A stretch of DNA of 13,810 nt, from the NCBI GenBank assembly GCA_023250585.1, contig JAHFAK010000013.1:12245-26054 (forward strand). The letters are read 5' to 3'. The stretch comes from Deltaproteobacteria bacterium. Lineage in GTDB: Bacteria; Bdellovibrionota_F; JAHFAK01. Of this stretch, positions 2,936-13,810 are shown in pieces; within the stretch, counting starts at the first letter, position 1; every line of letters begins with the position of its first letter. Made by a program: the position numbers and the translations under genes. A model generated the notes under the pieces. It was not told the DNA's origin and did not search any database. It saw only the letters and a list, made by a program, of their open reading frames with translations.

Positions 2936-3418
2936 ATGCTTCATGATGTGTATCTTTCATTAGGTTCAAATATTGGAAAACGAGAAAAATATATTGAAAG
3001 AGCCATAGAAGATCTTTGCGCTGTTTCAACTATTCAAAAAAAATCAAAAATTATAGAAACTGATCCGGTAGGGTACGAGGATCAAAATAAATTTTTAAAT
3101 TGTGTAGTATTTGTAAAAACACCATGTGCACCTGAAGAACTACTTCAAAAAATAAAAAAAATTGAAAATGATCTTGGCCGGAAAAGGCTCATCCATTGGG
3201 GTCCCCGAACAATTGATGTCGATATTATTTTTTATGATGATTTGATTTTAAACAGTGAAGTATTGATCATCCCGCATTCACGAATGCATGAACGATTATT
3301 TGTTTTAGAATCGCTTGTGGAAGTTAATCCTGATTATATACACCCAATTTTCAAAAAAACAATTAAGGAATTATATAAGGATATTTGTCATTGCGAGCGC
3401 AGCGAAGCAATCTCATAA
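2936..3418 (+). CDS. folK: 2-amino-4-hydroxy-6-hydroxymethyldihydropteridine diphosphokinase with repeat-derived C-terminus
   Basis: FolK transfers pyrophosphate from ATP to 6-hydroxymethyl-dihydropterin, making the substrate of FolP. The 160-residue product has the N-terminal SLGSNIG (8-14), the signature GPRTIDVDIIFYDD with its metal-binding aspartates, and the C-terminal PHSRMHERLFVLESL. The ATG follows the stop of the preceding gene directly, with GGAG (2925-2928) 7 nt upstream, so the operon is tightly coupled. The last ten residues (CHCERSEAIS) are encoded by the left arm of an inverted repeat, and the TAA lies just beyond that arm. The family fold seems complete by about residue 150, so the tail looks like an add-on created by repeat insertion that removed the original stop. 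Activity is probably retained. Confidence 0.95.
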   Translation: MLHDVYLSLGSNIGKREKYIERAIEDLCAVSTIQKKSKIIETDPVGYEDQNKFLNCVVFVKTPCAPEELLQKIKKIENDLGRKRLIHWGPRTIDVDIIFYDDLILNSEVLIIPHSRMHERLFVLESLVEVNPDYIHPIFKKTIKELYKDICHCERSEAIS

Positions 3419-4663: not shown

Positions 4664-4812
4664 ATTTCTTCAACATAGGAAAGGAATTCATGTTCAGAGA
4701 TAATACTGTTTTCTAAGAGAAAAGTTATGAGTAGCTGGAATCGCTTTTCAATTTCTTTTTCATCCGTAGGGCATTCTTGACGTAAGATTTCAAATGGTTC
4801 ATTTATTTTCAT
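4660..4812 (-). CDS. Small hypothetical protein, 50 residues, between the GspE-N-like gene and folC
   Basis: This short frame starts at ATG 4812, inside the last codons of the upstream gene (14-nt overlap), and stops at a TGA that overlaps the folC ATG as ATGA. It begins MKINEPFEILRQE and ends FLSYVEEI. It is acidic, with a predicted helical middle (KRFQLLITFLLENS) and no signal peptide or membrane segment. I do not recognise a family. There is no clear ribosome site, so it would depend on re-initiation after the upstream gene. Support comes from the fit: without it, 138 nt would separate the neighbours in an otherwise overlapping gene chain. It could instead be a chance frame. Confidence 0.5.
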   Translation of the reverse strand: MKINEPFEILRQECPTDEKEIEKRFQLLITFLLENSIISEHEFLSYVEEI

Positions 4813-5512
4813 ACGATGGAATTCGAAATCCTTTTTTATTAAGTAGACGTATTAATTTCTGCAGTTTTTCTTTTATAGAATTATGGCGATTATTTTCATC
4901 TGAGACATTTCTTAAGGCAGTTTCTAATGAAAAAAGAGCATTAAGAAGAAATGAATTCATCTCATCCTGAAAGTTGTCTTTTTGAAAAATATCAAATTTA
5001 GCATTTTCAATTGATTTAATTGTCTTCTCAAATATTTTTTCTTTATTGGTTTCAATGGGCGTGTATTCTTTTGGTTGGAGCTGGGTATTAAAATAGTGGT
5101 TAATTACTTTGGTGAGAGCCTTTTCTGTATCGAGAACAAAACGTATTTTTCCCCCCAGACTTTTTTTTATAAATTCCAGGGTATCGCTTTGAGAGGGATC
5201 TGCAATGCAGATAACAAAGGATTTTTCAGTTTCTTCGACAGGAAAAAATGTATATTCAATAAGTATATTTTTTGGAAAAAGACCAATAAGCTTCTCATTG
5301 ATTTCTTTGTCTGCGATACTGATTCGAGGAATATGAAAATGTTCGCTTAAGAGTTCGGTCAGAAATTCTTCATCAAAATATCCAAGCTGAAGCATGGTAT
5401 GTTCAAGTTTTCCTCCCCACGTTTTTTGTTTTTCACGCGCGGTGGTAAGTTGTTCTTCCGATATAATGCCCGCATCAATAAGTATGTCTTCAAATTTTTT
5501 TTTATTATTCAT
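4799..5512 (-). CDS. Stand-alone GspE/PilB N-terminal (MshEN-like) domain protein without ATPase
   Basis: The 237-residue product resembles the N-terminal part of type II secretion/type IV pilus assembly ATPases (T2SSE_N, MshEN). Residues 7-30 and 35-61 look like the two tandem helical repeats (LIDAGIISEEQL; LQLGYFDEEFLTELL...HFHIP). Residues 66-141 form the second subdomain, ending in VINHYFN where the ATPase would normally begin. No Walker motif follows; residues 150-237 are a charged, mostly helical tail. In MshEN domains that bind cyclic di-GMP each repeat starts with RLG; here the equivalents read KFE and KLE, so canonical binding is doubtful. A G6 run and an A9 run lie within the gene. 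The start overlaps the lipoprotein stop by 8 nt. A role as adaptor or regulator in pilus or secretion machinery is a guess. Confidence 0.75.
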   Translation of the reverse strand: MNNKKKFEDILIDAGIISEEQLTTAREKQKTWGGKLEHTMLQLGYFDEEFLTELLSEHFHIPRISIADKEINEKLIGLFPKNILIEYTFFPVEETEKSFVICIADPSQSDTLEFIKKSLGGKIRFVLDTEKALTKVINHYFNTQLQPKEYTPIETNKEKIFEKTIKSIENAKFDIFQKDNFQDEMNSFLLNALFSLETALRNVSDENNRHNSIKEKLQKLIRLLNKKGFRIPSYENK

Positions 5513-6323
5513 CTAAATTCCGTATTATAGCATCACCGGGAATAGCTATGTCAAAACGCTTTTTGTCGAGTGTTTCTTCGAATGTTATATCCGTAAATTT
5601 CATAGTAAGTGTGGATGCATTCATATGATCAATAATTTCTAATTCTTTAGGAAATGCCTTTTGAGAAAACTGAGCATAGTTTTTGTAGAAAATTGTCATT
5701 GATTCTTTTTGGTCCTCGTACAAGATTATTCTGGTGATCTGGAGTTCTTTATTGATATATATTTTAGTTGTGAGATCCTCTAATAAAATTTCTTCATTCA
5801 CCGGAGTAATTTTTTTGGTGTTATTATCAAGTAAGAGTAGGGGATTAGACAGCAGGAAGTATAAATTTTTTAATGTAAGCTTAATATTAAAAAGACGATA
5901 GAAATTTTCTTTTGTGGATTTGCCTTTATAGAGGGTATTTTCACGAGGATAAAAGGCATACACTTGATGCTTTTGTAATTTTAGTTGATAGACAATGGTG
6001 CCAAAAAAATGAAAAGCATCAATATATAAAAATTCATCTTTTTCCAGTGCAATAAATGCATTCAGTCGGGATAGTTTTTCTTTATTTTTATAAGAAATCT
6101 TGGCGTGTCCTCGAAGAGTCATAAAGTTTGGAGAGTATATTTTTTTTTCTATTTCTTCAGATGAGTCTGAAATATTCAATGAATGTGTGTTCGGAGAAAT
6201 ATGCTTTGGAGCACAACTGAGAGAACATATGCAGATGAGCGATGTCAGAATGAGCAGACCAATGCGCGACGAGGAGTAATAAAGGTCTGCTAAGTTATGG
6301 CATTGTTGATAATTCGAATTCAT
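5505..6323 (-). CDS. Putative outer-membrane lipoprotein, LolB/DUF4292-like
   Basis: The 272-residue product has a hydrophobic segment (GLLILTSLICIC, 22-33) followed by SLSCAPK, so Cys37 is a likely lipidation site although the lipobox is loose. The rest lacks membrane spans. Its pattern recalls LolB/DUF4292 lipoproteins: LRGHAKISY, short beta strands with DEFLYIDAFHFFG, the LLSNPLLL segment, and the ending FPKELEI...LTMKFTDITFEETLDKKRFDIAIP. Such proteins fold into a half-barrel that holds lipid or lipoproteins; a place in outer-membrane biogenesis is inferred. The start ATG lies 29 nt inside the upstream gene with no ribosome site, and no other good start precedes the signal peptide, so coupled translation is likely. 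The n-region is unusually long. Its stop overlaps the next gene's start. Family assignment is tentative. Confidence 0.7.
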   Translation of the reverse strand: MNSNYQQCHNLADLYYSSSRIGLLILTSLICICSLSCAPKHISPNTHSLNISDSSEEIEKKIYSPNFMTLRGHAKISYKNKEKLSRLNAFIALEKDEFLYIDAFHFFGTIVYQLKLQKHQVYAFYPRENTLYKGKSTKENFYRLFNIKLTLKNLYFLLSNPLLLLDNNTKKITPVNEEILLEDLTTKIYINKELQITRIILYEDQKESMTIFYKNYAQFSQKAFPKELEIIDHMNASTLTMKFTDITFEETLDKKRFDIAIPGDAIIRNLDE

Positions 6324-11158: not shown

Positions 11159-11863
11159 TCATTTGAAATAATAGCCAATCCCAATTCCTGCAAAAGGAAT
11201 CGTCAGTAAGTCTACAAAGAGGTCATTAATATACGGTTCCACTTCATCAGGATTACCATGGACTTTTATGGTTTTGAAAACTCCAAGCTCGCCGGAGAGA
11301 GCGATATTTTTGTTAATAAAATAACGATAGCCAATGCTGCCGCGAACATTATGGGAATAGGTTTCGAGCAGAACTTCCGATTGTGTGAGGATTAAGTTTT
11401 GTCCTTCAGGACTTTCTATCAAATTAGGGAACATAAGCGATAAGGTGTCAACGCCAATAAAATCTCCACCAAAACCAAGAAAGGTATAGCCGGCAGAGAC
11501 GAATAATCCATTGGCACGCAGAGGAAAAAACTTGAAAAGGAGAGAGATGCTCATTGATGAATCAAGACTTTTTTGAATTGTGTCTTGGGTTTTTTGATCC
11601 CAATTACTCCCAAAAAGAGCTGCAGCTTGATTCATCGAATTTGTATAGAGAAAAGGCATATAGCCAACATCAAGCCCAATATTAAAAGATCGATTAATAT
11701 CATAATCGAATAATATGCCGGTTGAAAGAGGGTAATACGTTGTTGCAGAAATCCCTAATTGATTCCAATGATTAAATTTCCATGAAGAACAACAATATGA
11801 AGCCTCAACTTTCTGATTACAAATAAAAAATAAAGAAAGCATAAACGCTATTTTAAGCTTCAT
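11159..11863 (-). CDS. Putative outer-membrane beta-barrel protein
   Basis: The 234-residue product starts with a clear signal peptide (MKLKIAFMLSLFFI, probable cleavage after Ala21 in VEA-S), followed by two adjacent cysteines (24, 25). The mature part shows alternating strands rich in Tyr, Phe and Gly (NIGLDVGYMPFL, LFVSAGYTFLGFGGDF, VRGSIGYRYFINKNIALSGELGVF) and ends GIGIGYYFK, like the last strand of a barrel recognised by BAM, though the final residue is Lys. AAAGG sits 5 nt before the ATG. It lies 82 nt after another barrel-like gene and may share its transcript. I do not recognise a specific family; it could be a surface antigen or a small transport barrel. Confidence 0.7.
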   Translation of the reverse strand: MKLKIAFMLSLFFICNQKVEASYCCSSWKFNHWNQLGISATTYYPLSTGILFDYDINRSFNIGLDVGYMPFLYTNSMNQAAALFGSNWDQKTQDTIQKSLDSSMSISLLFKFFPLRANGLFVSAGYTFLGFGGDFIGVDTLSLMFPNLIESPEGQNLILTQSEVLLETYSHNVRGSIGYRYFINKNIALSGELGVFKTIKVHGNPDEVEPYINDLFVDLLTIPFAGIGIGYYFK

Positions 11864-11945: not shown

Positions 11946-12581
11946 TTAAAAGAAATTTATGTAGAAGCCCATTTCAATAGCAAATTGGAATATAAGAAGA
12001 TTAGGAGAAAGTGGCTCTAAATACACTACAGTTTGGGTTTCAAGGGTGCTTCCTACACGATCATTATAAGGAATATCGATGCCTGCGGCAAAGTAAAGGC
12101 CCACGAGACTATGATTGACAAAATCTCCAGAGGCATCTCCTGAGTCATTGAGTAGATATTGGGTGGCTGGTCCAACGGCAATATAAGGGTTTACTGCAGA
12201 CGTTTTATTTTCAACTAAAATAGCGTTATTATCATTTGCTAAATACTGAGTCTGTTTTTCTGCCAATGGATATAATTTGATAAGCAATCCGGCGAGAATA
12301 AAAAAGTATTGGGAATTTAATTCATCGCTGGTAGTTAATACCCATGGTTTAGAAAATCCTAATAAGAAAACAATATTCGTTCGATTAGAAAGACTAAATT
12401 CAAATGCTTCTTTAAATGAAGCACCTATAACATGAGTTCTACGAGAGGACTCATCGACCATGTAGTAATTAAAAGCAGGAGCGATAGCATAACGATTTAC
12501 ATATGCATATGAACGTTCTGATATAACACAAAAAATGAGTAGTATACTAAGAAAAGAAAATATGCTGTGTATGTACTTCAT
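11946..12581 (-). CDS. Putative outer-membrane beta-barrel protein coupled to the FliG-like gene
   Basis: The 211-residue product has a signal peptide (hydrophobic residues 7-20, likely cleavage after Ala26 in SYA-Y). Amphipathic strands follow (RYAIAPAFNYYMV, NIVFLLGFSKPWVL, NPYIAVGPATQYL, SLVGLYFAAGIDIP), and the end is MGFYINFF, a good terminal barrel strand with Phe last. The pattern suits a small 8- to 10-strand barrel. Its ATG overlaps the stop of the FliG-like gene (ATGA), so the two are probably translated together, an unusual pairing of an outer-membrane protein with a protein of cytoplasmic fold. Resemblance to the next barrel gene is general only; I see no clear paralogy. Function unknown. 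Confidence 0.7.
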   Translation of the reverse strand: MKYIHSIFSFLSILLIFCVISERSYAYVNRYAIAPAFNYYMVDESSRRTHVIGASFKEAFEFSLSNRTNIVFLLGFSKPWVLTTSDELNSQYFFILAGLLIKLYPLAEKQTQYLANDNNAILVENKTSAVNPYIAVGPATQYLLNDSGDASGDFVNHSLVGLYFAAGIDIPYNDRVGSTLETQTVVYLEPLSPNLLIFQFAIEMGFYINFF

Positions 12582-13810
12582 TTATTTATATCAGGTTTAG
12601 GATTTTGAGCAGCTTGCGGATTTATTTTTACTCCTGGGGGTGTTTGTGGAGGCTTTTGGATTCCTGGTTGTGCTGGTTTAACTCCTTGTTGAGAAGTCGT
12701 TGTTGCCGATGCTCCAGTTGTAGGAGGAGTTGTATGTATTGTTCCTCCATTAGGTTGCTTTGGTGTTACAGCTACGTCAGCAGGCTTGGTTGCCTTTTCG
12801 ATGTCGAGTTCTCCATTGCGAATCATTTCTCTAATTTTGATAACAATTTCTTTTTGAGCTTTTATGATTTCTGCTTGGGGCGCATTTTTTTGTTTATCCA
12901 TATCAAATTTGAGCATTTCAGCTTTACGTTCAGGCAGGATAGAAAGAACTTTTGCAATAAAATTCTCATCTACACCAACTAAACTCGTTGCAAGAGCATT
13001 TTTTGAGACGTCTTTAATGATAATCTTTAATGCTTCTTTACTTAAGCCTAAGAGATCATCGAAAACAAAATATGCTTTCTTGATTTTCTTTGCCAGATTT
13101 GGATCAAATTCTTTTATGGTGTTGAGTACAAAGCTTTCATCTTTAGAGTCGAGATGATCTAAAATAGAGACAAGGCTATTAATACCACTTCCCGGATAGA
13201 GGTCAAATTTTGGTATCATGAGTGATTTTTCAGCCAAACGTTTTGTTACGGCATTTAAAATATCTGAATTAATATAGTTTATATTGCCAATTTCAACGGC
13301 GATTTCACTTTTTTGTTTTGGCGAAAGCTGTCCGACTAATTTTGCTGCTCTGTCAGCTGGCAGATACGTCAATAAAAGAGCAATAACACGTGAATCTTCA
13401 TCTTTAATGAGATAAAAGAGTTGGTAATCAGATAATTTTTTAATAAATGAAAAATGGGAAGCCTCTGTACCCTCGCTGAGTATATTTTGTTCATATTTTT
13501 TTGCCACAAGATTTGCTTTGAGTTTGGAGAGTGCATTAATTTCTTCCTGAATATCCCAATTATCAACGGTATTGTAGAAGGCTAAAATTTTTGCTCGTTC
13601 CTGTGAAGCAACATCAGCAAATAAATTCATCGCAGTATCGATACCAAATATTTTGATAAGAGAGGCCGCTTGTCTCAAGCCATTTTCTTCAATTACCCAA
13701 TTCGAGATAATTGTAGCGAGTAAATCAGGACGAGAAAAACATTGATTAATAACATCTTGTTTTAATAAATCTTTACTTAAAATTTGTGTTTGTTCAGCCG
13801 TGCTTGGTTG
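12578..13810 (-). CDS. FliG-like protein (FliG M and C domains) with Pro/Thr-rich tail, 5' end outside window
   Basis: The frame is open from the right edge, 410 codons to TGA 12580-12578; a TTG at 13678 is internal. Counting from the edge, residues about 30-105 resemble the FliG N domain (LRQAASLIKIFGIDTAMNLF), about 128-196 the M domain (VIALLLTYLPADRAAKLVGQLSP), and about 209-340 the C domain (FVFDDLLGLSKEALKIIIKDV; ILPERKAEMLK). The C part aligns by eye with E. coli and T. maritima FliG without gaps. FliG joins the flagellar rotor to FliM and bears torque residues. Here EHPQ reads EDSR (138-141), and of E. coli K264, R281, D288, D289, R297 only R281 and D289 remain (others Val278, Phe302, Pro311). 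The tail from 342 is rich in Pro, Thr, Gln. No other flagellar gene is visible. Probably a FliG paralogue with a different job. Confidence 0.8.
   Translation of the reverse strand, partial: QPSTAEQTQILSKDLLKQDVINQCFSRPDLLATIISNWVIEENGLRQAASLIKIFGIDTAMNLFADVASQERAKILAFYNTVDNWDIQEEINALSKLKANLVAKKYEQNILSEGTEASHFSFIKKLSDYQLFYLIKDEDSRVIALLLTYLPADRAAKLVGQLSPKQKSEIAVEIGNINYINSDILNAVTKRLAEKSLMIPKFDLYPGSGINSLVSILDHLDSKDESFVLNTIKEFDPNLAKKIKKAYFVFDDLLGLSKEALKIIIKDVSKNALATSLVGVDENFIAKVLSILPERKAEMLKFDMDKQKNAPQAEIIKAQKEIVIKIREMIRNGELDIEKATKPADVAVTPKQPNGGTIHTTPPTTGASATTTSQQGVKPAQPGIQKPPQTPPGVKINPQAAQNPKPDINK

Follow-up and report, generated by a model that had tools for sequence, protein, structure and literature searches.

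The gene at the edge of the stretch of DNA analysed here encodes a membrane protein that, judged by its sequence, is a natural FliF(RBM3)-TM-FliG fusion. We consider it likely, with a probability of roughly two in three, that this protein is the rotor subunit of a non-flagellar envelope motor driven by MotAB. The analysis shows the domain homology, the architecture, the membrane topology signals, the gene linkage, the missing markers of the flagellum and of type III export, and the loss of the FliM motif; we infer that the protein forms a ring, touches MotA and rotates, and that the motor drives some process. Since relatives of the gene in other phyla lie beside MotA/MotB and outer-membrane protein genes, parts of the flagellar motor are probably at work in another envelope machine, one not yet described.

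The analysed stretch (the window, 13,810 nucleotides) corresponds to G000:C43:12245-26054 of the host draft genome, G000, which comprises 2.24 Mb in 164 contigs and is 96.7% complete. The FliG-like frame in the window belongs to a longer gene, of which it makes up the last two thirds (Table 1). The full gene, recovered upstream of the window, starts with an ATG at L003:14533 and has 651 codons, encoding a protein of 651 residues with a signal peptide at its N-terminus. A run of exactly 100 N lies inside the gene, directly at the window edge. This run is a scaffold gap, and since the number of N written for such a gap is arbitrary, a frame that stays open through it carries no weight by itself. 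We nonetheless treat the two sides as one gene, because the homologue in a second genome of the host's phylum, G001 (locus MGSU01000112.1, Deltaproteobacteria bacterium RIFOXYA12_FULL_61_11), is an uninterrupted frame of 644 residues that aligns with both sides of the gap. G001 belongs to another family than the host and has a very different base composition. The two proteins are 44% identical over 348 residues of the FliG part (window residues 1-342); in the N-terminal part, identity is 27% over 170 residues.

Table 1. Features of the fusion gene and the two genes downstream of it, in window coordinates.
Feature	Position	Strand	Remarks
Second signal-peptide protein, predicted barrel	11159..11863	(-)	weakly matches OMP_b-brl (E 0.0033, under the cut-off)
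Signal-peptide protein, predicted outer-membrane barrel	11946..12581	(-)	4-base ATGA overlap with fusion gene
FliF/G fusion, C-terminal 410 residues	12578..13810	(-)	open frame running off window edge
Pro/Thr/Gln-rich cytoplasmic tail, ~65 residues (about 346-410)	12581..12775	(-)	after FliG_C match
FliG_C (torque) domain	12800..13120	(-)	PF01706 E 1e-26; K264V, D288F, R297P; R281 and D289 kept
FliG_M domain	13223..13423	(-)	PF14841 E 2.6e-15; EDSR in place of EHPQ
Linker and divergent helical region replacing FliG_N (window-part residues 1-119)	13454..13810	(-)	44% identity to G001 homologue (over window residues 1-342)

The domain order of the full protein is signal peptide, FliF RBM3/S-ring-like domain, transmembrane helix and FliG. 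Between the signal peptide and the hydrophobic helix, which in the host runs into the N gap, lie about 170 periplasmic residues; by hydropathy, an N-terminal signal-like segment and a second transmembrane segment occur in every family member checked. A plain Pfam search detected no FliF in the host protein, and a profile-profile comparison was therefore needed. Using hhalign, the N-terminal region of the family matches FliF with probability 98.9 and E = 3.4e-17, colinear over 157 columns, while the best of 30 column-shuffled controls reached 0.56; the two members from the host's phylum alone give probability 92.7 and E = 4e-7. A further control (‘fliGcan’) is invalid, as the fusion proteins were probably among the sequences in its alignment. 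The aligned region of FliF is its C-terminal periplasmic part (RBM3, with the collar insertion shortened), and a signal peptide takes the place of RBM1-RBM2 and TM1, which are missing. Conversely, the profile of the family N-region matches FliF frames upstream of FliG in flagellated genomes (1e-6 to 1e-20), and two relatives reach the Pfam FliF_C cut-off directly, with PF08345 matches over the whole profile (L070, 29.7 bits against a cut-off of 23.8; L075, 5e-10). The hhalign match, the reciprocal FliF matches and these direct matches thus all lead to the fusion proposed above.

In the FliG part, a sequence-only reading of the window had recognized M and C regions resembling FliG, and both domain matches in Table 1 do lie far above their Pfam cut-offs. 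The nearest solved relative of the window protein is FliG of T. maritima (6e-21). An AlphaFold model of the G001 homologue, built from two sequences, is usable in its FliG part, for which Foldseek returns FliG at 4e-10, whereas its periplasmic/RBM3 domain is poorly modelled. Helices are predicted, with moderate confidence, for the region of this homologue that stands in the place of FliG_N. The Pro/Thr/Gln-rich tail is poorly conserved in it.

We set the residue columns by alignment to T. maritima FliG and compared them against 37 canonical FliGs, naming the torque residues by E. coli positions that we take to be K264, R281, D288, D289 and R297. The alignment confirms the substitutions read earlier by eye, both in the EHPQ motif and at K264, D288 and R297. 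The accompanying claim that most motor residues have been lost holds for three of the five torque residues, but it is overstated, because each of the 11 module FliGs that align at D289 has retained the acidic residue there (by module FliGs we mean those of the fusion or of its two-gene version, described below); R281 is also retained in the host. FliG D289 is reported to interact with MotA Arg-90 (PMC7564593). The EHPQ motif is lost in 12/12 module FliGs: its His and Gln are kept in none of the 12, compared with 32/37 and 37/37 of the canonical sequences, respectively. The fusion protein fails the fliG equivalog test (TIGR00207; 127.1 bits against a cut-off of 226.7), and we do not file it as a flagellar FliG. 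In the FliG tree, whose long branches call for caution, the module FliGs stand apart from nearly all others with support 89/92; L032, labelled canonical there, is really the module FliG of G054. The fusion protein probably works like flagellar FliG.

Several other FliG-related sequences were encountered. A second FliG_C match in the host (C66) was rejected as a chance match: it is below the cut-off, contains an internal stop and, by eye, belongs to a HEPN/nucleotidyltransferase-like pair. The third FliG-related gene of G001 (L036:7855-8274, on G001:C186) encodes 139 residues with a transmembrane helix at the N-terminus and a FliG_C-like part by itself (4.6e-9), and its contig also encodes MotA and MotB. 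Orphan FliG_C-type proteins occur in other genomes (L080:6423-7388, L081:1263-2060, L079:3406-3933); one has a C-terminal transmembrane helix, one adjoins a TonB-like gene, and two of the three sit on very long branches of the FliG tree.

The gene for a TPR/PEGA lipoprotein ends 8 bases upstream of the fusion gene, and the triad of lipoprotein, fusion and barrel is found in the same order in G001. On the downstream side, the tail and the overlap with a signal-peptide frame are as the earlier reading had described them. Its description of an outer-membrane barrel there is plausible as a prediction for both downstream frames, but the first has no Pfam match and the OMP_b-brl match of the second is below the cut-off. 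The first has a homologue in G001 (E 6e-14), where the overlap is GTGA; the second is present only at the host locus. A promoter scan gave results near chance. Elsewhere in the window, we observed a stand-alone MshEN-domain protein that has no ATPase domain (4799-5512); a DUF4292 (LolA/LolB-like) signal-peptide protein (5505-6323) between the MshEN gene and a zinc-ribbon coiled-coil gene; and a folK-like frame ending in CHCERSEAIS (3391-3418), a translated, repeat-like tract that is GC-richer, in an AT-rich genome.

The gene belongs with envelope genes, in line with the earlier reading, and the pairing of a FliG-like protein with barrels recurs in G001 and in other phyla. Searched against the genome contigs, the window protein alone gave no match and the two-member alignment matched only the G001 locus. 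The profile of the N-region, however, run on 386 genomes sampled across bacteria, gave strong matches (E 1e-43 or better, well separated from FliF) in 10 genomes of 8 families. The fusion gene is present in 2/2 genomes examined of the host's phylum, and the module in 6/6 genomes of a second phylum. Outside the host's phylum, motA and motB directly adjoin the fusion or its split version at 9/9 loci uncut by contig ends (G067, G208, G213, G072, two in G388, G329, G054 and G082); in G329, G054 and G082 the FliF and FliG parts are separate neighbouring genes. At most module loci, PorV/UPF0164-type barrels or barrel-TPR proteins are adjacent.

The host genome itself encodes a complete MotA-MotB pair, on a contig other than that of the fusion. 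Its MotA (271 residues) has the prolines in place and shows no conservation where it aligns with R90 and E98; its MotB has the plug, the OmpA domain and the membrane ion-binding Asp. In G001, this MotA finds its best match (51%, E 5e-93) in an extra MotA, after which comes a separate MotB. The extra pair is orthologous to that of the host and stands apart from the other MotAs of G001, which match the host MotA at E 1e-17 to 1e-23. In G054, G329 and G082, it is the module's own MotA that the host MotA matches best. In G000 and G001, where motA-motB is not adjacent to the fusion, the two are tied together by co-occurrence in only two genomes and by linkage in other phyla. In the MotA tree, the module MotAs were not recovered as one clade; support is weak both for grouping the host MotA with them (64/12) and for the position of the G000/G001 pair.

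Flagellar genes were assessed in the host by four markers. The genome, at 97% completeness, contains no FlhA/SctV (FHIPEP), no FliM/FliN, no FliG other than the fusion, and no YscJ/FliF domain (PF01514; FliF RBM1-2, SctJ). These absences agree with the earlier view that the protein is not a flagellar FliG, and by these markers the gene is not the sole FliG of a complete flagellar set. FlhA and FliM/N are missing in 8/11 module genomes tested (the host and 7 others). In G001, G054 and G329 the module coexists with a separate full flagellum, and is therefore a paralogous system. The flagellar cluster of G001 also contains a 406-residue, MotE-like signal-peptide protein with four MgtE_N-like stretches (L037:3928-5148).

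It is important to weigh other accounts of the gene against that of a rotor subunit. That the host has an ordinary flagellum, the rest of whose genes were missed in an incomplete draft of 164 contigs, is scarcely credible: FlhA, FliM/N, FliF RBM1-2 and a canonical FliG are all absent together, the 7 other module genomes lack FlhA and FliM/N likewise, and the protein falls below the fliG equivalog cut-off. Another account is that the gene belongs to an apparatus akin to type III secretion, which has been proposed for the chlamydial FliF-FliG fusion. FliF of Chlamydiaceae is indeed a natural FliF-FliG(M) fusion (PMC4768692), and the relative L070 weakly matches NF004606, a ‘type III secretion system protein’. 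Nevertheless, we find this account very improbable, since FHIPEP is absent from the host and 7 other module genomes, the SctJ domain is absent from the host, and the chlamydial protein has neither FliG_C nor an RBM3-like domain (PMC4768692). It is hardly more probable that the gene no longer has a function and is what decay has left of a lost flagellum. Few flagellar-type genes are left in the host, and stray rotor genes are common in non-motile genomes (PMC12199754), but the gene has kept 44% identity to a homologue in another family of very different base composition, gene order and 4-base overlaps are conserved between the two genomes, the module occurs in all 6 genomes of the second phylum and in genomes with a separate full flagellum, and a fusion bearing a signal peptide is not what decay alone would produce.

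A static membrane ring or scaffold, which would organise envelope proteins such as a secretion channel or the barrels and not turn, with MotAB serving something else, deserves more weight, although we regard it as unlikely. It would fit the replaced torque residues and the unlinked motAB of the host's phylum, and SpoIIIAG provides an RBM3-like ring that is a channel component with no motor (PMC11481574). Against it stand the presence of motA-motB in the module cluster at all uncut loci of other phyla, the orthologous MotAB pair kept in G000 and G001 even though one of them has no flagellum, and a FliG_C that is kept whole, its acidic D289 residue included. The sequence-only reading had proposed that the FliG fold was reused, perhaps as a scaffold; given the FliF N-terminal half, the MotA/MotB of the host and the motA-motB genes in the operon of relatives, a repurposed motor fits better.

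In such a motor, the fusion protein would span the inner membrane once after removal of its signal peptide. The FliF RBM3/S-ring domain would form a periplasmic ring, under which FliG (the M and C domains and the divergent N part) would hang in the cytoplasm. Held to the peptidoglycan through the OmpA domain of MotB, MotA5MotB2 units would use the ion gradient to push FliG_C and so turn the ring, which may hand its torque to the TPR/PEGA lipoprotein and the outer-membrane barrels and thereby move or export some cargo at the cell surface. By analogy to GldLM, the PorV-like barrels and giant repeat proteins beside several modules suggest that the likeliest outputs would be gliding-type surface movement or secretion. 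On balance, we also favour the broader view that the module represents a widespread, undescribed class of non-flagellar rotary motor, built on a FliF(RBM3)-FliG fusion or its two-gene version and driven by MotAB, with no FliM/N, export gate or filament, which would act on barrel/TPR proteins of the outer membrane and so bring about the movement or export of surface material. In the open-access literature searched, we found no paper describing it.

Compared with the flagellar rotor (FliF MS-ring and FliG; PF08345, PF01706), the module has in common the order and topology of RBM3/S-ring, TM2, FliG_M and FliG_C, as well as MotA/MotB in the genome. It differs in that its protein is one polypeptide in which a signal peptide replaces TM1 with RBM1-RBM2, in the loss of the FliM site, in the lack of FliM/N or the export gate from most of its genomes, and in its linkage to outer-membrane barrel and TPR genes. 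The 5:2 ion-driven motors (GldLM of type IX secretion and gliding, AglRQS, ExbBD, TolQR) are, like the proposed module, proton-driven units with outer-membrane partners, and the PorV-like barrels at several module loci recall type IX secretion; the module adds a FliF/G ring, and we know of no 5:2 motor that uses a FliG ring as its driven wheel. The sporulation ring of SpoIIIAG resembles the module in having a single RBM3-type domain and a large ring, but it has no FliG, and L070 matches it weakly (18.7 bits against a cut-off of 147.7).

The nearest natural precedent is the chlamydial FliF-FliG(M) fusion, CT719/Cpn0860 (Bergeron 2016, PMC4768692), which shares with the module the absence of a flagellum, a signal sequence and a C-terminal transmembrane segment. 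It differs in keeping RBM2 and, of FliG, FliG_M only, without the SpoIIIAG-like (RBM3) domain and FliG_C that the module keeps; moreover, it interacts with FlhA in cells that have FlhA and FliI (PMC4768692), whereas the host has MotAB and no export gate. Covalent FliF-FliG fusions made in the laboratory assemble rings (PMC6079021, PMC11481574; PDB 8z4d), but these are constructs of full-length flagellar proteins, unlike the module.

A flagellar rotor and stator working as a separate machine, with no secretion system, would bear on the way in which the flagellum was put together from modules, or broken up into them. For structural work, the module could supply minimal FliF/G rings; it also leads us to expect, in several uncultured phyla, surface movement or secretion of a new kind.

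Three further kinds of gene were observed at module loci. Immediately next to the FliF/G-MotA-MotB module at L071:1-2545 and L147:386-5976, where there are two motB copies, lie stacked response regulators together with a sensor histidine kinase; this arrangement suggests signal control of the motor. Giant repeat-rich proteins of surface type adjoin the PorV-like barrels (L070:8517-12992, L072:2-1303, L148:1-6105), and one of them has, by eye, a C-terminal end like a sorting/FlgD-type domain. Finally, in one sub-type of the module, very long coiled-coil proteins of 1121-1304 residues with proline-rich starts (L073:1713-5627, L074:2225-6073, L148:10042-13407) are encoded between the fusion and motA.
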